Source of the DNA: an uncultured Acidobacteriia bacterium
GTDB taxonomy: Bacteria; Acidobacteriota; Terriglobia; Bryobacterales; Bryobacteraceae
Length of the DNA stretch: 37,301 nt
Assembly: GCA_903925015.1 (NCBI GenBank)
Contig: CAIYDY010000189.1
Span: 1 to 37,301 of the forward strand
Direction of reading: 5' to 3'
Made by a program: the position numbers and the translations under genes. The notes below the pieces were generated by a model. The model saw only the letters and a list, made by a program, of their open reading frames with translations. It did not search any database and was not told the DNA's origin. The stretch's first letter is position 1. Every line of letters starts with the position of its first letter. This document shows, piece by piece, positions 4,990 to 25,829 of the stretch.

Positions 4990-5904
4990 TTACTTGGCGC
5001 CGAAGAGCCGCTTCACTCCGACCCACTGCTGGGCGAGGTACCCTTCCGGGTAGTCGTCGACGGGATTCACCCCGGTGGCCACGGCGTGATGCTGGAAATC
5101 GGCTGTGCCGAACAGGATGTCCCAAATCGGGAACAGGGTTGCGAAGTTGCACCCGGCCTTCCCGGCCGCGATGGAGTGGTGCATCCTGTGGAATTTCGGG
5201 CTCACCAGAATCCTGTCGCCAACCGGGCCAAAGCCGAAGCGGACGTTGGCGTGGGAAAGGCTCTCAACCGCCCGGCTGGCCGCCACCAGCCAGATGAACT
5301 GCGCGGGGGGAATCCCGATCAGCGCCGTGACCATTGCAAACCATACCCACGTGACAGAGTCGTCCACCAGGTGGTTGCGGTCGTCCGACCAAAGGCTCAA
5401 CATCTTCTGGCTGTGGTGGAGGCTGTGGAGTTTCCACCAGATTTCCAAACGGTGCTGCAATCGGTGCCGCCAGTAGTTTGAGAAATCGATGGCAACCAGA
5501 TACAAGAAGAAGCTCGGCAGTGGATTGGCCAGCAGCCATGGCGAGAGCAGTTCCAATTCGCGGGGCAGCAGGTTGTGGAGCCGCAACCACTCGTCCAAAC
5601 CGCTGGTTACGGGCATCAGCACGAAGAAGAGCAGCAGCGGAACGAGGCCCAGACGCGTCAGCAGCGTGTAGACGATATCGACCCGCGTGCCCTTGCGCGA
5701 CTTCCACTCCTCCGCTGGAAACATCGACTCCAAGGGACGGACCAGAATGTAGATCAGCAGAATCTGCGCCAAGCCGTATAGGAAAAACGTGATACCGTCG
5801 AACGCAAGTTCATCGAGGCCGATCAGGCCCAGCTTGTAGAGTGCGGGTTGGGCGGCATGCTCGTAGATCCAGCCCGCGAGCAGGTCGAACTGGTCATCTC
5901 CCAT
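4990..5904 (-). CDS. Sterol desaturase / fatty acid hydroxylase family protein
   Basis: A membrane-bound di-iron enzyme of about 304 residues with several hydrophobic segments. The histidine boxes are all visible: HRLQH (HX3H), HSLHH (HX2HH) and a C-terminal HRMHH. They bind the two irons of the oxygenase centre. Such enzymes hydroxylate or desaturate lipids, hopanoid/sterol-like molecules or ether lipids; the substrate here is unknown. ATG 5904 was chosen over an in-frame GTG at 5913 because AGGTG sits six bases upstream of the ATG. The start overlaps the end of the NodB-fold gene by 11 bases, making it the last gene of a three-gene minus-strand operon. Confidence 0.88.
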   Translation of the reverse strand: MGDDQFDLLAGWIYEHAAQPALYKLGLIGLDELAFDGITFFLYGLAQILLIYILVRPLESMFPAEEWKSRKGTRVDIVYTLLTRLGLVPLLLFFVLMPVTSGLDEWLRLHNLLPRELELLSPWLLANPLPSFFLYLVAIDFSNYWRHRLQHRLEIWWKLHSLHHSQKMLSLWSDDRNHLVDDSVTWVWFAMVTALIGIPPAQFIWLVAASRAVESLSHANVRFGFGPVGDRILVSPKFHRMHHSIAAGKAGCNFATLFPIWDILFGTADFQHHAVATGVNPVDDYPEGYLAQQWVGVKRLFGAK

Positions 5905-15261: not shown

Positions 15262-15269
<8 letters not shown>

Positions 15270-16149
15270 CATCTTCGGAAAGCTCAAAGCGCTATTGGAG
15301 GATCCGCCGCCGGAATTCGCGTTTGAAATTGGCTCGGACCGGATCGCGATGTCCCGCACGAGCACGCCTTTCGCGGAACGGCGGATAGGACTTCCCCAAG
15401 GCACAGTGGTACCGTCGGCGACCAAGGACAACGTGGTCGATCCTGCTGCCTTTGGCCAAGCGGTTGCATCGTTGGTTCCGCCGGCAGCCGGTCGGCGCAA
15501 GCGCGGAGCGGCTCTGATTCTTCCAGCAGCGGCTGTGCGGCTGGCGGTGATCGAATTCGAAAGCTTCCCAGCCAAGGAGGAGGAGCGGCTACAGTTGATC
15601 CGCTTCCGCTTGCGGCGCACCCTCCCGTTCGACGTGGATTCGGCTGCGCTTTCGTACCAAGTGCAGCCGGGCAACAAGGTCGTGGTGGCGATTGCACCGG
15701 CCGACGTGGTGGCACATTACGAAGCGCCCTTCCGAGCTATCGGATTGGACCCCGGATTCGTCACTTGCTCACCGCTGGCAGTGCTGGATCTGCCGCCCTC
15801 GGCGGGTTCGGTTTTGGCCGCCCACCTCAGTTCCGGAGTATTGACGGTGCTTGCTGTCGACAATGGCGTGCTTTCGCTGGCCCGAACCTTGGAATTGGCT
15901 CCCGGTGCGGACGGCATGGTTACCGAAATCTCTGCGGATTTGTACACAACCCTGATTTATATGGAAGACCAGACGGGATCGCGGCCCGGCAAGGTTCTCC
16001 TGGCCGGTTTCGGACCGGATTCGGATGCGATCGCAAGCAGGCTGGCGGAAGAGCTGGAGCTCCCAGCGGAGTCCCTTCCGTACGACAATCCGGGACTGGC
16101 GGGATACATCGCGTCAGTCGCCGGTGTAAAAATGGAAAGCGCCGCATGA
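15262..16149 (+). CDS. pilM: PilM-like actin-fold assembly protein
   Basis: A 295-residue soluble protein with weak but recognisable PilM/GspL-cytoplasmic similarity: FEIGSDRIAMSR as the first strand, AALILPAAAVRLAVIEFESFP, and the IRFRLRRTLPFDVD segment typical of PilM (the lRwelek.lPFd motif), then a late GKVLLAGFGPDS phosphate loop. It lies at the cytoplasmic face and should bind the N-terminus of PilN. The start is TTG 15262, with AAGGTG about seven bases upstream, overlapping the ATPase gene by eight bases. Its stop overlaps the next ATG by four bases. At 295 residues it is somewhat shorter than the roughly 350 residues of most PilM proteins. Confidence 0.82.
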
Positions 16150-16712
16150 GAATTCCAATCAATCTAGCCCGGCAACCGTTCCGACGGGATCGGGCGATCT
16201 TGGTGGCATCCGCGGGCACCGGCGTGCTCTTGTTCGTCTCACTGGTCATTTTGACGATTATTGCCGTCAATGAACGCGCCATGTCGGCTGCGGCACAAAA
16301 GGATTTGGTGTCCACCAGCCGCCGCCTGGATGCGATACGGTCGGAACAGCGCAAACTGGACGCCCAACTTCGGCTGCCGGAAAACGAAGTCGTGCTCGAC
16401 CGGAGTGTCCTGATCAACGAAATCATCCGTCGCAAGGGCATCAGCTGGACCAAAATCTTTTCCGACCTTGCGGGCGTCCTACCCCACAATGTCCGTATTG
16501 CGGTGATTCGGCCGCAGGTCACGGGGAACGACCAGTTGTCACTGGAGATGACGGTGGAGGCCGAAGCTGCCGAGCCTGTGATTCTTTTTGTTTCGAATTT
16601 GGAGGGGTCCGACGTGTTTGGTTCCACGGAGGTCACGGCGATGGCCGCACCCACCCAGAGTGACCCCGTTTACCACTATCGTCTTTCGGTGAATTATGCC
16701 CAAAAGCTCTAA
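16146..16712 (+). CDS. pilN: PilN-like inner-membrane assembly protein
   Basis: A 188-residue protein with the PilN opening MRIPINLARQPF, one transmembrane helix (about residues 20-42), a charged coiled-coil-like segment (RRLDAIRSEQRKLDAQL) and a periplasmic ferredoxin-like domain ending LSVNYAQKL. It should pair with PilO and hold PilM through the N-terminal tail. ATG 16146 overlaps the pilM stop (ATGA), and its end overlaps the start of pilO by 17 bases. The frame is open much further upstream, but that part is out of phase with pilM and does not look like protein. Confidence 0.88.
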   Translation: MRIPINLARQPFRRDRAILVASAGTGVLLFVSLVILTIIAVNERAMSAAAQKDLVSTSRRLDAIRSEQRKLDAQLRLPENEVVLDRSVLINEIIRRKGISWTKIFSDLAGVLPHNVRIAVIRPQVTGNDQLSLEMTVEAEAAEPVILFVSNLEGSDVFGSTEVTAMAAPTQSDPVYHYRLSVNYAQKL

Positions 16713-17361
16713 ATCCATCCTCGCAGGATTTCCCTGGGAGACGTTGACCGAGCCAAAGGTGCTCGTTCGAATCGGGCTCGGATTTCTACTGGTTGCCAAT
16801 CTGGCAGCTGCGGCTTTCGCGTTCCATTTGTTCGACGCATCGCCGGAGGACGTGGGACGTCAACTGACGTCGGCGCTGGAAACACAGCGGCAGGAACAAC
16901 TCCGGCTTGTCCGCAGCCGCTTGCTGGCGGCGACGGTCGAAAAAGGAAAGACCGAGGGGGCGAAGTTTCTGGCGACCTCGATGACGTCCCGCCGCCGCAC
17001 CTATTCGACAATTCTGCGGGAATTGACCGAAACTGCCAAGACCGCCGGGATGGAAAAGGCCGGCGGGAGCATCAATTTGCAACCAGTAGCCGGATCAGAG
17101 GATGAAACCGGTGCTGCCAAATTGGATATGATGTCGGTCTCATTCAACCTGGAGGGAACCTACCCGCAGTTGGTGAAGTTCGTCAACCTGCTGGACCGCT
17201 CACCGAGATTCCTGATTATCGAAACGCTGACGGCAACACCGCGCGCAAAGACGGATGTATTGACCGTCAATTTCAAACTCGACACGTTTGTACGGGAGGG
17301 CGACGAGGGGCCTGAACAGGCACCCACCACTACCCCCGCGCCTGTGGGAGGTGCGCTGTGA
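16696..17361 (+). CDS. pilO: PilO-like inner-membrane assembly protein
   Basis: A 221-residue bitopic protein: a short cytoplasmic N-terminus, a transmembrane helix (about residues 26-43), a coiled-coil region (about 48-75), then a periplasmic domain with the family segment LEGTYPQLVKFVNLLDRSPRFLIIE and a Thr/Pro-rich C-terminal tail. PilO forms a heterodimer with PilN that links the cytoplasmic motor to the periplasm. It starts inside pilN (17-base overlap) and its stop overlaps the next start (GTGA). Confidence 0.85.
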   Translation: MPKSSKSILAGFPWETLTEPKVLVRIGLGFLLVANLAAAAFAFHLFDASPEDVGRQLTSALETQRQEQLRLVRSRLLAATVEKGKTEGAKFLATSMTSRRRTYSTILRELTETAKTAGMEKAGGSINLQPVAGSEDETGAAKLDMMSVSFNLEGTYPQLVKFVNLLDRSPRFLIIETLTATPRAKTDVLTVNFKLDTFVREGDEGPEQAPTTTPAPVGGAL

Positions 17362-18116
17362 CGGTTGGATCCGAGGATAGGAAAAAAGTTGCATACTTGG
17401 TAGGGATTGTCGTGATCGGCGGGATCTTCTCGTTGTATGAGAACGGAGTTTTCGACGGACAACCGGCAGTCCAGCCCTCACCAATTCAAACCCAGTCCGC
17501 GCCAATTCCCCGCCCTGCGGCTGTAGCCCAAACGGCGGGGCGCGGACGAATTCAAAAGAAGAAAGCCCAGTCAAAGGCATCCGGTGCCTGGACGCCGAGG
17601 CTTGGCGCGCAGAATCCCGAGGACAGGCCTGATCCGGCCACAGTCGACCCCACACTACGATTCGACCTTGTCGCGAAGGTCCAAGCAATCGAGGCCGGCG
17701 CACCAGGCAGGAATCTTTTTGCCTTCGGGGCCGCGCCGCAGCCACCGGCACCCAAGGTGGAGTTGCCGAAGAATGTAGCCAAGATCCCGATCAACCAGCC
17801 GCCCCCGCCGCAGCCCCAGCCATTCGTACCGGCCGGACCGCCACCTCCTCCGCAGGCTCCGCAGATGACGTTCAAGTACTACGGTTTCAAGGAGTCGGTG
17901 GCCTACCGCTCGGGACAAAAGGGTGGTCGCGAGGCGGAAATCCGGCAGCGCACAGCATTTCTCTTGGATGGCGATTCCATTCTGATTGCCGGGGAGAACG
18001 ATGTCTTCCTGAAGCGATACCGCGTAGTGCGAATCGAGCGTGATCAAATCACGATCGAGGACACACAGTTCAAAAGCACCCAAACCATCAAGGTCCAGGA
18101 CAATATCGCCCTCTAG
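17358..18116 (+). CDS. PilP/GspC-like periplasmic linker protein
   Basis: A 252-residue protein with one N-terminal membrane segment (VAYLVGIVVIGGIFSLYENG, about residues 12-31), a long Pro/Gln/Ala-rich disordered stretch with runs such as PPPPQPQPF (about 40-170), and a C-terminal beta domain. That domain (MTFKYYGFKES...AFLLDGDSILIAGENDVFLKRYRVVRI) resembles the HR domain of GspC/PilP, which touches the outer-membrane secretin. The fold match is by pattern only. The start is GTG 17358, with GGGAGG about seven bases upstream. No secretin gene follows, so its partner must be encoded elsewhere. Confidence 0.68.
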   Translation: MTVGSEDRKKVAYLVGIVVIGGIFSLYENGVFDGQPAVQPSPIQTQSAPIPRPAAVAQTAGRGRIQKKKAQSKASGAWTPRLGAQNPEDRPDPATVDPTLRFDLVAKVQAIEAGAPGRNLFAFGAAPQPPAPKVELPKNVAKIPINQPPPPQPQPFVPAGPPPPPQAPQMTFKYYGFKESVAYRSGQKGGREAEIRQRTAFLLDGDSILIAGENDVFLKRYRVVRIERDQITIEDTQFKSTQTIKVQDNIAL

Positions 18117-18142
18117 GCGGTGTGGACCGGGGAGTCACACCA

Positions 18143-19315
18143 GTGCGCGTTAAAAGGAACAAGCATCCCGAATCGGGCTACGCAGTCCTCGCCATATTTG
18201 CGATGGCCGCGACATTCGCAGTACTGCTCTACAGGCAGCTGCCGAGGATGGCGTTCGAGGCCCAGCGCGATAAGGAACAACTGCTGATTGACCGGGGCAA
18301 GCAGTTCTCCCGCGCCATTTCCCTCTACGTCCGCAAATACAACCGATATCCGGTGGATATTGACAGCTTGGAAAAGTCCCAAGGCCTTCGATTTCTGCGG
18401 CGCAAGTACACCGATCCGATGACAGGCAAGGACGATTGGCGGCTGATCCACGTCGGACCGGGAGGCGTTTTCATCGATTCCCTGGTTTACGGGCCGAAAA
18501 AGGGTGACAAGAGCGGCCCGCAGACGTTCATCACCGAGATGCAGGGCTTGGGTGCCGCTCCGCCGTCCGGGGTTCCGGAGGGTGTCAATCTCGCCACACG
18601 ACGACGTCCCAGTGACGGCGTCTCGGGCCCTGGAACCGTGGATCCGAGTGGTCCGGCCGCGTCGGGACCGGTCATGGTGCTGCCGGATGGTCGGATCGTG
18701 CCTGCGACCGTGACTGGAGTACCGGGGTCACCAGTCAATCCAAATGCTGGTGGAGGTGGACAGCCAAGTATTCCAGGCCAGGGACAACCCGGACAAGGAG
18801 GCCCAGGCCAAAATCCCGGTCCGAATGGCGGCTTTCCGCCGGGATTCCCCGGTGGCATTGGATTTCAACCCGGTGGACTCGGAAATGGTGGCCAAAGTCA
18901 ACCCAATGGTCCTCCACAATCCGCAGCTAACCTGATCAACCAGATCCTGACGACGCCCCGACCCGGCGGATTCAACGGTTTGGGCCAAGGTGGAGACGGT
19001 ACAGGGAACCAGGCCAATGGTGGCATCGGCGGAAACAATACCGGAACGCCGCTGGGACAAAACATGGGCGGCCAAGTCATTGGCGGCGGCGTGGGCGGGG
19101 TCGCCAGCAAGGCCGAGCGCGAGGGAATCAAGGTCTTCAACGAACGCACAACCTACAATGAGTGGGAATTCGTGTACGATATTACAAAGGATCCGGCACG
19201 GGGAGGCGGCAGGGGCGGAATTCCCGGGCAGCCAGCCGGTAATGTCCAAGGCGGGAATCAGCCAAATGCGAATATCCCCGGCGGCATTCCAATGCAGCCC
19301 GTGCGCCAGCCGTAA
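18143..19315 (+). CDS. Atypical pseudopilin-like protein with Gly/Asn/Gln-rich tail
   Basis: A protein of 390 residues and the last gene of the pilus operon. After a basic start comes ESGYAVLAIFAMAATFAVLL, a pilin-like hydrophobic helix in which the Glu normally at +5 is absent, as in GspK-type tip pseudopilins. A GspG-like helix and head follow (AISLYVRKYNRYPVDIDSLE, DPMTGKDDWRLI). From about residue 180 the chain is low-complexity, rich in Gly, Asn, Gln and Pro, broken only by short segments such as EFVYDITKDPA near the end. GTG 18143 is preferred (GGGGAG eight bases upstream); GTG 18122 would add seven residues. Prepilin peptidase processing is inferred. It may be a minor tip subunit or a secreted filament-associated protein. 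Confidence 0.65.
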   Translation: MRVKRNKHPESGYAVLAIFAMAATFAVLLYRQLPRMAFEAQRDKEQLLIDRGKQFSRAISLYVRKYNRYPVDIDSLEKSQGLRFLRRKYTDPMTGKDDWRLIHVGPGGVFIDSLVYGPKKGDKSGPQTFITEMQGLGAAPPSGVPEGVNLATRRRPSDGVSGPGTVDPSGPAASGPVMVLPDGRIVPATVTGVPGSPVNPNAGGGGQPSIPGQGQPGQGGPGQNPGPNGGFPPGFPGGIGFQPGGLGNGGQSQPNGPPQSAANLINQILTTPRPGGFNGLGQGGDGTGNQANGGIGGNNTGTPLGQNMGGQVIGGGVGGVASKAEREGIKVFNERTTYNEWEFVYDITKDPARGGGRGGIPGQPAGNVQGGNQPNANIPGGIPMQPVRQP

Positions 19316-19344: not shown

Positions 19345-19377
19345 TGATATACTCAGCTTGTTCCGTAAACGGAACAA
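19345..19377 (+). promoter_or_regulatory. Extended -10 promoter with overlapping operator palindrome
   Basis: TGATATACT (19345-19353) is an extended -10 element. It is followed by the perfect palindrome TTGTTCCGTAAACGGAACAA (19358-19377), which would cover the transcription start of the small AT-hook-like gene. The core TGTTCC-N6-GGAACA recurs upstream of the TonB-dependent transporter gene. A repressor site is the simplest reading; the regulator is unknown. The rest of the 19316-19515 gap holds a roughly 140-base leader with no other clear feature besides the ribosome site AAGGAG before 19516. Confidence 0.55.
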
Positions 19378-19515
19378 TACTTCTGCCCGACGGCGTTGTT
19401 CGGCTTTCCCGGAAAGGCATGCGGGCCGGAAGAATTCGGAAGTAGCGTTCCGGTTTCATAACAGTAAAGGCGTTGGGGGCCGCGGAGGCCGCCAAGGAAC
19501 AGGCAAGGAGAATAA

Positions 19516-19740
19516 ATGGATATCACGAAAATCCTGGAAGAATTGCGCCAGGAGCACGCACAGTTGGAGGAAGCCATCCTCAGTCTCGAACGGTTGGCCG
19601 CAGGCGGCAAGCGCCGTGGTCGTCCACCAGCCTGGCTCGCGGCTGCCCAGCAGCGCGGACCGGCCACACCCAAGGCCAAGGCCAAGCCGGAAGGCGCTCC
19701 CGCCAAGAAGAAAAAGGGCACGGATTCGGCGGAAGGCTAA
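19516..19740 (+). CDS. Small coiled-coil protein with AT-hook-like motif
   Basis: A 74-residue protein. Residues 1-30 form an amphipathic helix (ITKILEELRQEHAQLEEAIL) likely to dimerise as a coiled coil. Then comes KRRGRPPAW, which contains the RGRP core of AT-hook minor-groove binders, and a Lys/Ala/Pro-rich tail ending AKKKKGTDSAEG. Similar short proteins are common in Acidobacteriota but I know of no assigned function. A nucleoid-associated or regulatory DNA-binding role is inference. The start has an excellent ribosome site (AAGGAG, six bases upstream). The gene is monocistronic, with its own extended -10 promoter, palindrome and terminator. Confidence 0.8.
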   Translation: MDITKILEELRQEHAQLEEAILSLERLAAGGKRRGRPPAWLAAAQQRGPATPKAKAKPEGAPAKKKKGTDSAEG

Positions 19741-19820
19741 GCTTTCCGGGCATCCGTGCGTTGGGGCTCGGAGGAAGTATTACCGAACGCACCCGCCGGG
19801 TGAAATCACACCCTCGAATC

Positions 19821-19858
19821 AGGTCCGCTCCCACCGGGGGCGGACCTTTCGTTTTTTT
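19821..19858 (+). terminator. Rho-independent terminator after the small AT-hook-like gene
   Basis: A 12-bp stem (AGGTCCGCTCCC / GGGGGCGGACCT, one G-T pair) with a three-base loop is followed by TTCGTTTTTTT. It is the clearest intrinsic terminator in the window and separates the small gene from the transporter gene. Confidence 0.92.
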
Positions 19859-19874
19859 AGGGCCCCAATCGGCC

Positions 19875-19892
19875 TGTTCCATTCCCGGAACA
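19875..19892. promoter_or_regulatory. Operator-like palindrome before the TonB-dependent transporter gene
   Basis: TGTTCC-ATTCCC-GGAACA has the same half-sites and the same six-base spacing as the palindrome at 19359-19376. The right half extends identically (CGGAACAA). It lies between the terminator of the small gene and the transporter start, so it falls in the region that must hold the transporter promoter. No good -35/-10 pair could be assigned in the 90-base gap. Confidence 0.5.
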
Positions 19893-19948: not shown

Positions 19949-22900
19949 ATGGGAATCCGCGTTGTACTCGCTTGTTTGGTCTTTTGCCTTCCGGTAGGCG
20001 CACAGTTCTCGGGGCGCCTGACCGGCAGTGTGCAGGACGCATCCGGAGCACCTATTCCAAACGCCACCGTAAACATCACATTGCCGGGAGGGACCGCCGC
20101 CGTCCTTTCGACAAGCACTTCAAAAGAAGGTGTTTACCGTCTGATCGGCGTCCGGCCCGCCACCTACGACCTCGCTGCGTCGTCCAAAGGATTTCTCACC
20201 ACCACCCTGCGCAGCGTCCCGGTCGACGGGGCCCGCGAGACCGACGTCCAAACCATCACCCTGCAACTCGCGACCATGTCGCAATCGGTTGATGTTACGG
20301 CGGACCAGGAGTCCGTCCAGACTGGCAATGCGGAAATCTCCACTGTCATTACCACCGAGCAGATCCAAAAATTGCCCGTGATTGACCGCGACCCCCTCGC
20401 GCTCATCCAGACCCAAGCCGGCGTCTCCTACAACGGCAACGGAAATACCGTAATCAATGGAATGCGGACGTCGTACGCGAACATGACGCTGGACGGCATC
20501 AATATCCAGGACAACTATATCCGCGACAATGCCCTCGACTATTCCCCGAACCGGCCCCTGTTGGGCCAAGTGCGGCAGATGACACTTGTCACCTCCAACG
20601 CCAACGCGGCGGCGAGCGGCGGTTCCGCGCAATTGGCAATGGAAACCCCGTCGGGAACCAACACCTACCATGGCGGTGGAATCTGGTACAACCGCAACAG
20701 TTTTTTCTCCGCAAACGACTGGTTCAACAACCAGAGCGGCGTGGAACGGCCACGGTTGAACCAGAACGAATTGGGGGCGTCGATCGGTGGACCGATCCGC
20801 AAGGACAAACTTTTCTTCTATTTCAACTACGAGGCTGTCCGCACCAACCAGCAATCCCCTATCACCACGACGGTGCTGACCAGCGACGCCCGGAACGGCA
20901 TTTTCACCTATCGGGATACTGCGGGAACCATCCGCAAGGTGGATCTGCTGGGGCTCCGCAAGGTGCAGACCGACCCCTATATTGCGAACCTCCTCAAGCA
21001 GGTGCCCGGTCCGGACAAGATCAACAGCTTCTCGGTGGGCGACAGCACCGCGGCACTGCTGCGCAATACGGCGGGATACCGCTTCAACCAGCGCGCCAAC
21101 GAGGTCCGGGACAACATCACGGCAAGGTTTGACTACAACCTGTCATCCCGGCAATCCTTCAGTGGCTCCTACATTTGGAACCGGGACAACACGGACCGGC
21201 CCGATTTGGAGAGCGATTTCTCGGTGATACCGAAAACCACCAACCCCAACCACAGCCATTTCCTCTCAACGGCCTGGCGTTGGACCCCGAACGGAAGTCT
21301 GACCAATGAACTCCGCGGCGGATTCAATCTCGCACCGGGGGACTTCCTCACTTCCGAAAAGTTTGGATCGGCGTTGATCACCGGCATGGTCTTTACCGAT
21401 CCTGTCGCCGAGGGAATGGCGCAGGGGCGTGCGACCAACACCTACGTGCTCTCCGACAATGCGGCTTGGCAGCATGGACGGCATTACATCCAATTCGGCT
21501 TCCATACGCAGCAAGTGCGCGTGCGTGCCTATGACGACGGAGGTATTATCCCTACATATACGCTGGGAATGGGTACCGGCCAACAGGCCCTGCAGCGCGC
21601 TGAATTCACCTCCATCCGCACTGCCGACGTCACCAACGCCAACAACCTTCTGGCCTCACTGGGGGGATTTGTCGATTCCTACGCCCAATCGTTCAATGTC
21701 ACGAGCCGGACATCCGGATTTGTGCCTGGCGCTTCCTCCACACGGAACCTGAAGCTGGGGGAATATGATTTCTACGCCCAGGACAATTGGAAGATATCCC
21801 ACCGTCTGACCGCAACAATCGGACTCCGATGGACGATCCCCAGTGTTGCCGACGAACGCGATTCAATCGCTCTGCTGCCCACACTCAAGAGCGGCGATCC
21901 CGTCGCGGCACTGCTCTCGAATGCGACATTGGATTTCGCGGGCGGCTCCGTGGGCAGACCTTGGTACCACCGCGATTGGAAGGATTTTGCCCCCAATCTC
22001 GGTCTGTCGTGGGACGTATTCGGGACGGGCAAGACCGCTGTCCGCGCCGGGTATTCAATTTTTTACGTCAATGACCAAGCCTTGCTGGCACCGGTCAACA
22101 TGGTGGAGGGAAATTCGGGACTAACAGGGATTTCGGACAAGAGTGGCCTCTCGGGCCGAATCTCGACGAATCTGCCGTCGATTTCAAGCCCTGCCTACAA
22201 GGTCCCGCTCAATGTTTCGGACAACTACGCGGGCAATTCCTACAATACTGTCGGTCTGGTGGATCCCGGATTGAAAACTCCGTACGTCCAGCAGTGGTCG
22301 GTAGGCATCCAGCAGGAATTCCGGCACAGCGTCTTTGAGGCCCGCTATGTGGGAAACCATGCCGTCCACGGGTACCGTGCCTTCGACTACAACCAAGTGG
22401 ATGTAAAGAGCAGCGGCTTCCTGACAGACTTCCTGAAGGCGCAGAACAACGGCTATCTGGCTCTGGCGAAGAACGGCACATTCAATCCCGCATACAATCC
22501 GGCCATCGCGGGCAGCCAGGCGCTGCCCGTTTTTGCCAAACTCAGGAACGGCGGCCAGTTGAACAATGGAACCGTGCGCGGCTATCTGCAGACCGGCGAA
22601 GTGGGCGAATTGGCGTCGACTTATCAAATCGACGGCACGAACGGCACAGTGAACTTCTTCGCCAATCCGAACGCGCTCGGGGCCGACCTGCTCACCAACT
22701 ACTCCAATTCGACCTACCATTCCCTGCAAGCAGAGGTGCGGCGGCGATATCTGGCCGGCTTGGATTTCACCGTCAATTACACGTTTTCCAAGGTTCTCAG
22801 CGACGCCGGGGGCGACTCGCAATCCCGTATTGAGCACTTCCTCGATCTCAGCAACCCGCGGATTGAACGTGCGCCCGCCAATTTCGACCAACGCCACATG

Positions 22901-23512
22901 ATCAAGGGGAATGCCGTGTATGAATTGCCCATCGGCGGCTCGCACCGGATTGGATTCAAACCTTTGGACCGGGTAATCGGCGGATGGTCCTTCGGCGTGA
23001 TCGCCATCCGGCAGTCCGGGGCACCGTTCTCCATCCTCTCCGGCCGCGGCACCCTGAACCGCGCGAGCGGTTACCGGTCATACTTCAACACCGCCAACAC
23101 AGCTCTCGCAGGAAACCAATTGATGTCCATTGTTTCCTATCAGATGACGGGCAACGGTCCCATGATGATCGCGTCTAGCGCGATCAATACCGATGGCACG
23201 GGAGTCAACAGTGATGGCTCGCCGGCGTTCACGGGACAGGTGTTCTCCAACCCAACTGCGGGAAACATCGGCGTGCTCCAGCGGCGGATGTTTTATGGTC
23301 CATGGTCGTTCGATGTGGACTTGAGTCTACAAAAGACGGTCCATATTACCGAGCGCCAGTCGGTGGAAATCCGGATGGAGGGCGTGAATATTCTCAACCA
23401 TCCGTCGTTCTGGTCGGGGGACCAAAACATCAATTCCAGTACTTTCGGAACCATGGGCAGCACGTTGAACCTGGCCCGTGTGATGCAGTTTGGATTGCGG
23501 TACCAGTTCTAG
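19949..23512 (+). CDS. Oar-like TonB-dependent outer-membrane transporter
   Basis: A 1187-residue outer-membrane protein. Order: signal peptide (MGIRVVLACLVFCLPVGAQ), a carboxypeptidase-regulatory-like Ig domain (about residues 20-110: GSVQDASGAPIPNATVNIT), a plug domain (VITTEQIQKLPVIDRDPLAL...VINGMRTSYANMTLDGINIQ), and a large beta barrel with many aromatic strands, ending YQF with the C-terminal Phe typical of BAM substrates. This architecture is expanded in Acidobacteriota and is thought to import large nutrients such as glycans. The TonB box is not obvious. The frame is open back to 19358, but the signal peptide fixes ATG 19949; no strong ribosome site is seen. The gene is apparently single and carries the palindrome shared with the small upstream gene. 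Confidence 0.92.
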   Translation: MGIRVVLACLVFCLPVGAQFSGRLTGSVQDASGAPIPNATVNITLPGGTAAVLSTSTSKEGVYRLIGVRPATYDLAASSKGFLTTTLRSVPVDGARETDVQTITLQLATMSQSVDVTADQESVQTGNAEISTVITTEQIQKLPVIDRDPLALIQTQAGVSYNGNGNTVINGMRTSYANMTLDGINIQDNYIRDNALDYSPNRPLLGQVRQMTLVTSNANAAASGGSAQLAMETPSGTNTYHGGGIWYNRNSFFSANDWFNNQSGVERPRLNQNELGASIGGPIRKDKLFFYFNYEAVRTNQQSPITTTVLTSDARNGIFTYRDTAGTIRKVDLLGLRKVQTDPYIANLLKQVPGPDKINSFSVGDSTAALLRNTAGYRFNQRANEVRDNITARFDYNLSSRQSFSGSYIWNRDNTDRPDLESDFSVIPKTTNPNHSHFLSTAWRWTPNGSLTNELRGGFNLAPGDFLTSEKFGSALITGMVFTDPVAEGMAQGRATNTYVLSDNAAWQHGRHYIQFGFHTQQVRVRAYDDGGIIPTYTLGMGTGQQALQRAEFTSIRTADVTNANNLLASLGGFVDSYAQSFNVTSRTSGFVPGASSTRNLKLGEYDFYAQDNWKISHRLTATIGLRWTIPSVADERDSIALLPTLKSGDPVAALLSNATLDFAGGSVGRPWYHRDWKDFAPNLGLSWDVFGTGKTAVRAGYSIFYVNDQALLAPVNMVEGNSGLTGISDKSGLSGRISTNLPSISSPAYKVPLNVSDNYAGNSYNTVGLVDPGLKTPYVQQWSVGIQQEFRHSVFEARYVGNHAVHGYRAFDYNQVDVKSSGFLTDFLKAQNNGYLALAKNGTFNPAYNPAIAGSQALPVFAKLRNGGQLNNGTVRGYLQTGEVGELASTYQIDGTNGTVNFFANPNALGADLLTNYSNSTYHSLQAEVRRRYLAGLDFTVNYTFSKVLSDAGGDSQSRIEHFLDLSNPRIERAPANFDQRHMIKGNAVYELPIGGSHRIGFKPLDRVIGGWSFGVIAIRQSGAPFSILSGRGTLNRASGYRSYFNTANTALAGNQLMSIVSYQMTGNGPMMIASSAINTDGTGVNSDGSPAFTGQVFSNPTAGNIGVLQRRMFYGPWSFDVDLSLQKTVHITERQSVEIRMEGVNILNHPSFWSGDQNINSSTFGTMGSTLNLARVMQFGLRYQF

Positions 23513-23574: not shown

Positions 23575-24624
23575 CTAGTCGAGACCGAGGACGCGTCTGT
23601 TGCGGGCTTTGTCCGACCCGGAACCGGCAAAATCATCGAACGCCTTTGTCGGCACGTCGATCAGGTGGCTGTCGATAAACGGAGCCCCTTCCATCGCGCC
23701 CTGCACGCTGTCCTTGAAGCAGCATTCCCATTCGAGAACCGCCCACGAGCTATAACCGGCCGCCGTCAAACGCGTGAAAACCTGCGCGAAATCCACTTCG
23801 CCATCGCCCAGCGAGCGGAAGCGACCCGGGCGTTCCTTCCAACCGAGATACCCGCCATACACGCCCGCCTTGGCCGACGGACGGAATTCGGCGTCCTTCA
23901 CGTGGAAGGCCTTGATGCGCGAGGCGTAGACATCGATGAAGTCGATGTAGTCCATGCACTGCAGCACGAAGTGCGAGGGGTCGTAGTTGATCGCAACGCG
24001 CGGGTGGTTGCCCGTAGCTTCCAAGAATTGCTCGAAGCTTGCACCGTCGTGCAGATCCTCGCCCGGATGCAGCTCGTAGGCGATGTCGACGCCGTGCTCG
24101 TCAGCGAAGTTCAGGATCGGTAGCCAGCGCCTGGCCAATTCCGCGAACCCTTCCTCCACGATGCCCGCCGGACGCTGCGGCCACGGATACATGTACGGCC
24201 ACAGCAGCGCGCCGCTGAACGAGGGCGAGCAGGTGAGCCCCATATTGGCAGAGGCCTGAATGACGTACTTCATCTGCTGCACGGCCCACTCGGCCCGAGC
24301 TTTCGGATTGCCGCGGACTTCGGGAGCCGCAAATCCGTCGAACAACTCGTCGTAGGCCGGGTGCGAGGCGATCAACTGGCCCTGCAGGTGCGACGCCAGT
24401 TCGGTCACAGCCAATTCGTTGGTCTGCGCCCGGAGATCATCGCAGTAAGCCTTGGATTCGGCCGCCTGCTTGATATCGATCACGCGGCTATCCCAGGAAG
24501 GGATTTGGACGCCGATGTAGCCGAAGTCCTCCACCCACTCGGTGATGTTCGACAGATTGTTGTATGGAGCGTCGTCACCCAAAAACTGGGCGAGGAAAAT
24601 GGCGGGGCCTTTGATTTGTGACAT
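23575..24624 (-). CDS. Sugar phosphate isomerase/epimerase-fold protein
   Basis: A 349-residue TIM-barrel protein of the xylose-isomerase-like / AP-endonuclease-2 family. Motifs visible are YIGVQIPSWD at the start, DIAYELHPGEDLHDG with a metal-ligand Glu, VAINYDPSHFVLQCMDY with Asp/His ligands, and AVLEWECCFK near the end. It probably isomerises or epimerises a sugar or keto-sugar, using a divalent metal. ATG 24624 is preferred, preceded by AGAGGA ten bases away. The gap to the upstream Gfo/Idh/MocA gene is 14 bases, so the pair forms an operon and very likely acts in one pathway. Confidence 0.87.
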   Translation of the reverse strand: MSQIKGPAIFLAQFLGDDAPYNNLSNITEWVEDFGYIGVQIPSWDSRVIDIKQAAESKAYCDDLRAQTNELAVTELASHLQGQLIASHPAYDELFDGFAAPEVRGNPKARAEWAVQQMKYVIQASANMGLTCSPSFSGALLWPYMYPWPQRPAGIVEEGFAELARRWLPILNFADEHGVDIAYELHPGEDLHDGASFEQFLEATGNHPRVAINYDPSHFVLQCMDYIDFIDVYASRIKAFHVKDAEFRPSAKAGVYGGYLGWKERPGRFRSLGDGEVDFAQVFTRLTAAGYSSWAVLEWECCFKDSVQGAMEGAPFIDSHLIDVPTKAFDDFAGSGSDKARNRRVLGLD

Positions 24625-24638
24625 GGTTGAAAATCCTC

Positions 24639-25820
24639 TTAGTTTGCCTGTGGCGTGGAAGGCATCGGCACCCATGCGGCACCCGCATCAGCCGATTCCA
24701 CGGCAGTGTAGATGAACTGCATGCCCCGAAGCCCGTCATAAACGGTCGGGAAGTTGTATTCCGCAGTCTTCATTGGGTTGCCCGCGATGTGTCGGCGGAT
24801 GGCCTCGATCGCTCCCATGTAAACGTTGGCGAAACCTTCCAGATAGCCTTCGGGATGGCCGGTGGGAATGCGGGTGGCCGCCGTTGCCTCGGCGGACAGG
24901 TACTCCGCGTGGCCCCGGGTCAGGATTTCCTTCGGCTTCCCATGCCGCGAGACTTCAAGGACGTTGGGATTTTCCTGGCACCAGGAAATCGCACCCTCGG
25001 AGGCGTAAACACGCAAGCGCAGCGCATTCTCCTCGCCTGTCGCAACTTGGCTGACGGTGAGGACGCCCTTGCCGCCGCCCTGGAAGCGCAGCAGCGCGTT
25101 GACGTCTTCGTCGAGCTGCCTGTCCGGCAGGAAAATGCTCTTGTCGGCGCAAATCGAGGTCACCGGGTCTCCCGTGATGTACTCCATGAGATTCATGGCG
25201 TGGGTCCCGATGTCGCCCAGCGCGCCGCCGATCCCGGATTCGGCCGGGTTGGTCCGCCACGAGGCCTGCTTGGAACCCAGCTTTTCCTGCGGCTCCATCA
25301 ACCAATCCTGCAAATATTCCACCAAAACCTTGCGGACCGTGCCCATGTGGCCGGACCGGAACATGTGCCGCGCGTGCCGCACCAGCGGGTAACCGGTGTA
25401 GTTGTGGGTCAACGCGTAGACCATGCCGGAACGTTCCACCACGCCGACCAACTCCTTCGCCTCGTCCAAGGTCAACGTCATCGGCTTGTCGCAAACAACG
25501 TGGAACCCGGCTTCCAAAAATGCCTTCGAAGGGCCAAAGTGCGCGTTGTTCGGCGTCACGATGCTCACGAAGTCGATCCGCTGGTCGGCCGGGAGCGCTG
25601 CTTCGGCAGCGGCCATCTCCTCGTAACTCGTGTAAACGCGGGAGGGGTCGACGTGCAGCTTCTCGCCGGTGGCGCGCGAATTCGCCGCGTCACGCGAGAA
25701 TACGCCCGCGCACAATTCCACCTGCTGGTCCAAAGCCATCGCGATGCGGTGCACCGCCCCGATGAAGGAGCCCTGTCCGCCCCCGACCATACCCATCCGT
25801 AGTTTGCGATCTGTAGACAT
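24639..25820 (-). CDS. Gfo/Idh/MocA family oxidoreductase
   Basis: An NAD(P)-dependent sugar dehydrogenase of about 393 residues. The N-terminal Rossmann fold has GMVGGGQGSFIGAVHR, and the family Lys lies in CDKPMT (EKP in most members). The C-terminal alpha/beta domain has GGALGDIGTHAMNLMEYITG with the conserved His. Such enzymes oxidise or reduce a sugar hydroxyl, often making 3-keto sugars. It is the first gene of an operon with the isomerase-fold gene. ATG 25820 is preferred to GTG 25826. An extended -10-like TGATAAAAT ends nine bases before the ATG, giving a very short leader. Confidence 0.9.
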   Translation of the reverse strand: MSTDRKLRMGMVGGGQGSFIGAVHRIAMALDQQVELCAGVFSRDAANSRATGEKLHVDPSRVYTSYEEMAAAEAALPADQRIDFVSIVTPNNAHFGPSKAFLEAGFHVVCDKPMTLTLDEAKELVGVVERSGMVYALTHNYTGYPLVRHARHMFRSGHMGTVRKVLVEYLQDWLMEPQEKLGSKQASWRTNPAESGIGGALGDIGTHAMNLMEYITGDPVTSICADKSIFLPDRQLDEDVNALLRFQGGGKGVLTVSQVATGEENALRLRVYASEGAISWCQENPNVLEVSRHGKPKEILTRGHAEYLSAEATAATRIPTGHPEGYLEGFANVYMGAIEAIRRHIAGNPMKTAEYNFPTVYDGLRGMQFIYTAVESADAGAAWVPMPSTPQAN

Positions 25821-25829
25821 ACCCACCGA

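Follow-up and report, generated by a model that had tools for sequence, protein, structure and literature searches.

Contig CAIYDY010000189.1 (C189), here called the window, is a 37,301-nucleotide stretch of the 6,331,154-base (6.33 Mb) draft genome of an uncultured Acidobacteriia bacterium (G000), and it raises the question of which protein reads two like palindromes that stand before two separate genes. A sequence-only reading had reported copies of TGTTCC-N6-GGAACA at 19359–19376 and 19875–19892, and both are borne out at these coordinates. It had further proposed that a single regulator serves both sites near the promoters, namely the small DNA-binding protein encoded between them or a sugar-responsive repressor. 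The idea of one shared regulator is supported; neither candidate is, as the operator follows the gene and the recognition helix of a helix-turn-helix (HTH) regulator. Judged from sequence, the palindromes are very likely operators of a previously undescribed regulator, encoded outside the window, that combines a Cro/C1-type HTH with a LexA/CI-like domain. This regulator most likely marks its own gene and small AT-hook-like genes in many related bacteria, and here probably the large transporter gene too. A search of the open-licence PMC subset found no description of the motif or the regulator.

The small gene (19516–19740, plus strand) encodes 74 amino acids, in which an N-terminal helix or coiled coil and then the AT-hook-like motif KRRGRPPAW are discernible by eye. 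AT hooks have an RGRP core in a basic context and bind the AT-rich minor groove; this core is present in the motif, and the protein has no match in Pfam or NCBIfam. Directly upstream lie genes resembling those for pilus or type II secretion assembly (15262–19315), which we take to be PilM/N/O-like; relatives keep the last gene of this run ahead of their group I small gene. Operator 1, the primary site (TGTTCCGTAAACGGAACA, 19359–19376, no strand assigned), lies inside the 20-mer TTGTTCCGTAAACGGAACAA, scores 27.8 with the regulator-operator matrix and is identical in the sister species G018. It begins 5 bp past TATACT (19348–19353, plus strand), a predicted −10-like element of the small gene read from the sequence, and so lies over the expected transcription start, as had been claimed. 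The sequence-only reading overlooked a third copy, which follows operator 1 at a distance of 87 bp and falls within the small gene's 5′ leader. This weaker, degenerate partner, operator 1b (CGTTCCGGTTTCATAACA, 19446–19463, no strand assigned), scores 10.8, and G018 carries CGTTCCGGTTTCAAAACA at its position.

Between the small gene and the transporter gene, a terminator-like hairpin, GGTCCGC...GCGGACC (19822–19858, plus strand), was read from the sequence, with arms at 19822–19828 and 19840–19846 and a T-rich stretch after them. Operator 2 (TGTTCCATTCCCGGAACA, 19875–19892, no strand assigned; score 11.6) follows this hairpin and ends 56 bp before the ATG at 19949, which agrees with its earlier placement in the promoter region of the transporter. 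Besides the sites at 19359, 19446 and 19875, one match to the matrix in the window exceeds a score of 2 (3.2, at 5118).

The 18-mer operator consists of two 7-bp half-sites flanking an AT-preferring N4, a layout of the form that would be expected for a dimer. Exact TGTTCC-N6-GGAACA occurs twice in the genome, at the two window sites, and the reversed control does not occur. With up to one mismatch, the count is 22 against 21 for the control, so that the literal motif, whose genome-wide frequency had been proposed as a check, stands at chance level. A broader pattern with one mismatch likewise gave no excess in this genome (27 versus 29 for the control). As genome-wide counts are at control level, tests by position were preferred; it is position before orthologous genes, rather than abundance, that appears to carry the signal.

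Both palindromes belong to a broader operator consensus, TGTTCYGAATTCRGAACA. The pattern YGTTCYG-N4-CRGAACR is rare: it was found 44 times against 6 for the control in 19 genomes of the same genus, 43 times against 10 in 18 other genomes of the family, and 34 times against 24 in 24 genomes of other families. Twenty places were inspected among the matches listed: 14 are an HTH regulator gene adjoining divergent genes (presumably ubiX and/or pheA), one is a paralogue of the small gene in the same genome, and five are other genes. A 20-bp scoring matrix was built solely from the operators of regulator genes, and 54 of 574,771 background positions reach a score of 6. The threshold was a score of at least 6 for counting operator pairs and at least 10 for co-occurrence.

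The transporter gene (19949–23512, plus strand) encodes a TonB-dependent-receptor-like outer-membrane protein of 1187 amino acids (Pfam: PF25183, E 9.9e-138; CarboxypepD_reg, 5e-16; Plug, 6.6e-4, below cut-off), which we take, with the sequence-only reading, to be Oar-like. Beside it on the minus strand (23575–25826) are genes for a xylose-isomerase-like TIM-barrel protein (AP_endonuc_2) and a GFO/IDH/MocA oxidoreductase. Gene order is the same in G018, where the transporter is 81% identical in a reading frame chosen by hand and its site (CGTTCCGTTCCCGGAACA) scores 6.2. The enrichment that had been expected before Oar-like transporters was not found: among 25 other transporter loci from 19 genomes (two of which, L215 and L219, are cut or out of register), none scores 6 or more within 400 bp upstream. 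The five closest transporters (64–68% identity) adjoin no small gene, and their upstream scores range from −20.2 to 3.2, the latter in G008. Sites are conserved before the small genes of many relatives and, among the transporter loci examined, in the sister species only.

It is quite possible, although the less favoured outcome, that operator 1 is real and operator 2 a chance or non-functional match. The scores of operator 2 in both species are far below that of operator 1, the best of the 25 other loci reaches only 3.2, and the transporter has no clear promoter. Against this, operator 2 is one of just two exact matches in the 6.33 Mb genome, it lies in an intergenic promoter region, and its GTTCC-N6-GGAACA core is kept in G018 despite diverged flanks. 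We lean towards a functional operator 2 in this lineage, and a lineage-specific site at the transporter is plausible. Operator 2 would then probably place the adjacent transporter gene under the regulator of operator 1, in this lineage alone.

Operators with high scores are found at a separate locus, the regulator's own gene. In G000, this gene lies outside the window at C302:36878–37654, divergent from genes reading as ubiX and pheA, and its operator (C302:36746–36763) scores 38.1, the highest among the matches listed for this genome. In a named collection of metagenome-assembled genomes (MAGs), 157 relatives of the regulator were found, and the best 80 loci were examined; every one of them carries the broader palindrome in the 300 bp before the regulator gene. 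Of these palindromes, 68 are exact, nine have one mismatch and three have two; elsewhere in these loci, across 576,531 positions, there are two exact matches, 13 with one mismatch and 68 with two. Whole genomes gave 39 parsed regulator loci of 40 (L276 was left out, its operator being seen in L235), among which G031 and G066 have no clear site and G010 has a weak one. The closest relatives of the regulator in the named collection come from Acidobacteriota MAGs, many titled Bryobacterales or Bryobacteraceae, and one of the 80 loci kept (L137) is titled Acidimicrobiia. In G000, the divergent ubiX-like/pheA-like genes begin near the regulator operator (L046:2001, C302:36746) and may be controlled from it as well.

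Presence of the regulator gene coincides with presence of the small-gene operator. Small-gene relatives were found in 50 of the 61 genomes searched. Among genomes holding a small-family gene, a small-gene site is present in 30 of 33 with the regulator and in three of 17 without it (p 4e-7, ignoring phylogeny). Genus g21, whose small protein is divergent, accounts for ten of the 14 double negatives; leaving out g21, the counts are 30 of 33 versus three of seven (p 0.011). Exceptions occur in both directions: G011, G014 and G035, drafts of 91–96% completeness, have small-gene sites and no regulator found, and G019, G025 and G026 have the regulator and no small-gene site. Two further genomes without a detected regulator hold a good site elsewhere. 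In G007, the small-gene operator (L042, C28) looks decayed, with a best score of −7.2, and is possibly a natural loss; a good site stands elsewhere on the same contig (L199, score 25.1). G058 has good sites nonetheless (25.2 and 16.5; L197, L198).

Operator sequence also varies with the recognition helix of the regulator. Four of the 80 loci have the helix N-R-[IV]-SEIENRGL in place of S-R-L-SDIENKGT and similar helices. A G at operator position 6, in at least one arm, is found at all four of these loci and at two of the 76 others. Three of the four belong to genus g19 (G036, G061 and G063), and in each of these genomes the regulator operator and the small-gene operators alike carry the position-6 G. 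G062 has the changed small-gene operator, with no regulator recovered. Across the 71 small-gene sites of the first genome set (score at least 6), the change is found in two sites of G036 and one of G027, in the latter in one arm. Such covariation is what a shared binder would predict, and in these four genomes it may represent a single evolutionary event. Since the operator tracks both the presence of the regulator gene and its recognition helix, this regulator is the likely binder.

The same evidence bears on the proposal that the palindromes are bound by the small AT-hook-like protein, which would then control its own gene and the transporter. The gene for this protein sits between the two sites, the protein carries the KRRGRPP motif, and the operator centres favour A/T. 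However, the HTH regulator gene, which has a locus of its own, is itself preceded by high-scoring operators, 38 of the 78 small-family genes lack a site, and the 62% complete genome G034 has the regulator and its operator with no small gene found. An AT hook is not expected to specify conserved GTTC/GAAC arms, and the changes in the operator track the regulator's helix. Autoregulation by the small protein is accordingly very unlikely, and a new regulator family with its operator is the best explanation of the sequence data.

The regulator is a protein of about 260 amino acids with a Cro/C1-type HTH and a LexA-like C-terminal domain. HTH_31 matched all four regulator proteins scanned, in each case below the Pfam cut-off; the S24 match was weak (0.027, in one of the four, below cut-off), and PF01726, the LexA winged HTH, matched none of the four. 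An AlphaFold2 model has a pLDDT of 79.6 and a pTM of 0.49; its N-terminal domain is helical, mostly exceeds a pLDDT of 90 and has XRE/CI structural matches. Foldseek gave 18 matches at E ≤ 0.001, every one of them to LexA or to a 186 or lambda repressor, and the full-length alignments have a large rmsd and TM-scores of about 0.26–0.34 by query length. The modelled likeness to the LexA/CI fold thus seems to hold by domain and not as a rigid whole. A profile search against PDB sequences returned five matches (best E 0.032), with no repressor among them.

For 60 of the 80 named loci, catalytic positions were located by eye from known LexA/CI motifs. At the position of the S24 catalytic lysine, K is found in none of the 60, and at the serine position S is found in 30. 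A CxWC stretch occupies the lysine position (C205 in 56 of 60, W207 in 60, C208 in 55), and H199 is present in 53. An AG or CG dipeptide occurs in the linker region (residues 80–150) of 18 of the 60 regulators. Because the catalytic lysine is absent and CxWC stands in its place, RecA-triggered self-cleavage is an unlikely route of release for this family. The LexA-like C-terminal domain might favour reading the sites as SOS boxes of LexA, but this is extremely unlikely: the genome encodes a separate canonical LexA (C285:16396; PF01726, GSSM and lysine), the region upstream of its lexA has no such site (best score −14.5), and the regulator never has the catalytic lysine and has the serine in only half of its aligned members.

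The operators of the small genes are frequently paired. Allowing two mismatches and 600 bp of upstream sequence, 26 of the first 30 small-gene loci have at least one palindrome. Among all 78 family members found in the 61-genome search, 31 genes have two sites at a score of at least 6, nine have one and 38 have none. By eye, about 11 of the site-less genes are of group I/II type (L024, L042, L147, L153, L154, L155, L157, L162, L164, L166 and L169), ten are of g21 type, and the rest are other paralogue types. Spacing within the 31 pairs is 82–90 bp, with 86 or 87 bp in 18 of them; the window gene, with 87 bp between operators 1 and 1b, is one of the 31. L146 and L176, both near contig ends in G010, have an identical pair of sites and could be a single locus represented twice. 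A paralogous small gene in G000 (C143) has sites scoring 24.4 and 17.1.

Promoter layout differs between the group I and group II small genes. A generic sigma70 scan often picked hexamers within upstream coding sequence, and alignment to the operator with counting was used instead. In group I, a TAnnnT box lies 5–11 bp before the printed site in seven of eight listed loci; at L018, the eighth, it is the downstream site that is printed, and the ninth, L024, is unlisted, having no site at score 6. In group II-type genes, TTG begins 4–8 bp past operator A in all 30 counted, a count that excludes group I as well as L034 and L150, each of these two having the downstream site only. The order in group II is first operator, TTG, TA-rich −10-like element and second operator. 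At the regulator gene, the TT lies about 11 bp further from the operator than at group II genes in about 70% of loci, a shift that would correspond to roughly one helical turn. That the palindromes act as RNA hairpins, as a leader element or a terminator, is scarcely credible: a stem with a 4-base loop can be drawn by eye at the transcript start in operator 1, but no T-run follows it, at group II genes and at the regulator gene the first copy precedes a −35-like element and so falls outside the transcript, the arms are conserved as letters and change with the DNA-recognition helix, and Rfam found no family at the sites in nine small-gene loci, only an unrelated RNase P.

These layouts suggest how the HTH regulator might act. 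Operator pairs about 86 bp, or about eight helical turns, apart could hold two dimers that contact each other by their C-terminal domains, in the manner of lambda and 186 CI, for which looping is known. In the window, as operator 1 is on the predicted start and operator 1b in the leader, binding would most likely repress the small gene. At the regulator gene and the group II genes, the first operator lies upstream of the −35, a position that would also allow activation; the distances from first operator to −35 in these two classes differ by about one helical turn. As the promoter layouts of groups I and II differ, the targets need not all be regulated with the same sign. That a ligand, redox or metal signal triggers release is conjecture. 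A fuller scheme is tentative and, taken whole, rather doubtful: a proteolytically dead LexA/CI-like regulator would sense metal or redox state through CxWC, promoter loops of about eight turns would set the levels of small chromatin-like AT-hook proteins across an acidobacterial order, and extra targets such as the TonB-type transporter would be added in single lineages.

The regulator shares with LexA and with CI of lambda and 186 the two-domain layout of an HTH and an S24-like domain, the fold match by domain, and palindromic operators that include its own gene. With CI it also shares paired operators at near-constant spacing. It differs from both in lacking the catalytic lysine, in conserving CxWC, with the serine in half of its members, and in a Cro/C1-type HTH that stays below Pfam cut-offs. 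Its recurrent targets are small AT-hook-like genes, and a canonical LexA is present in the same genome. DdrO of Deinococcus, an XRE-type repressor, has an N-terminal domain that aligns with the model (6rnz_A, 74 columns, rmsd 1.9); its C-terminal domain and regulon differ from those of the regulator described here. The non-canonical SOS regulators of Bacteroidetes are likewise chromosomal S24-family proteins with an HTH of their own kind and are reported to conserve a Ser-Lys dyad and a scissile Ala-Gly (PMC8565304). By comparison, the present family never has the lysine and has a linker Ala-Gly or Cys-Gly in only 18 of 60 members.

The outcome is a predicted regulator, operator and small core regulon for widespread, little-studied soil Acidobacteriota, mostly Bryobacterales-type MAGs, and the prediction is directly testable. 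It offers what appears to be a natural specificity switch, in which recognition helix and operator change together, and a LexA-like fold that is apparently without self-cleavage yet has a conserved regulatory role.

Two further sets of operators stand beside other genes. In G032 (C45 and C190), operators scoring 36.9 (L050:2001, L052:2001) lie beside genes for another small protein (CxxCxxLWR...HLEAVDEL), which has matches in only two of the 61 genomes; response-regulator-like genes are nearby. In G021 (C142), an operator pair exactly 86 bp apart (L230:1501 and 1587) precedes a gene unlike the small AT-hook-like genes.
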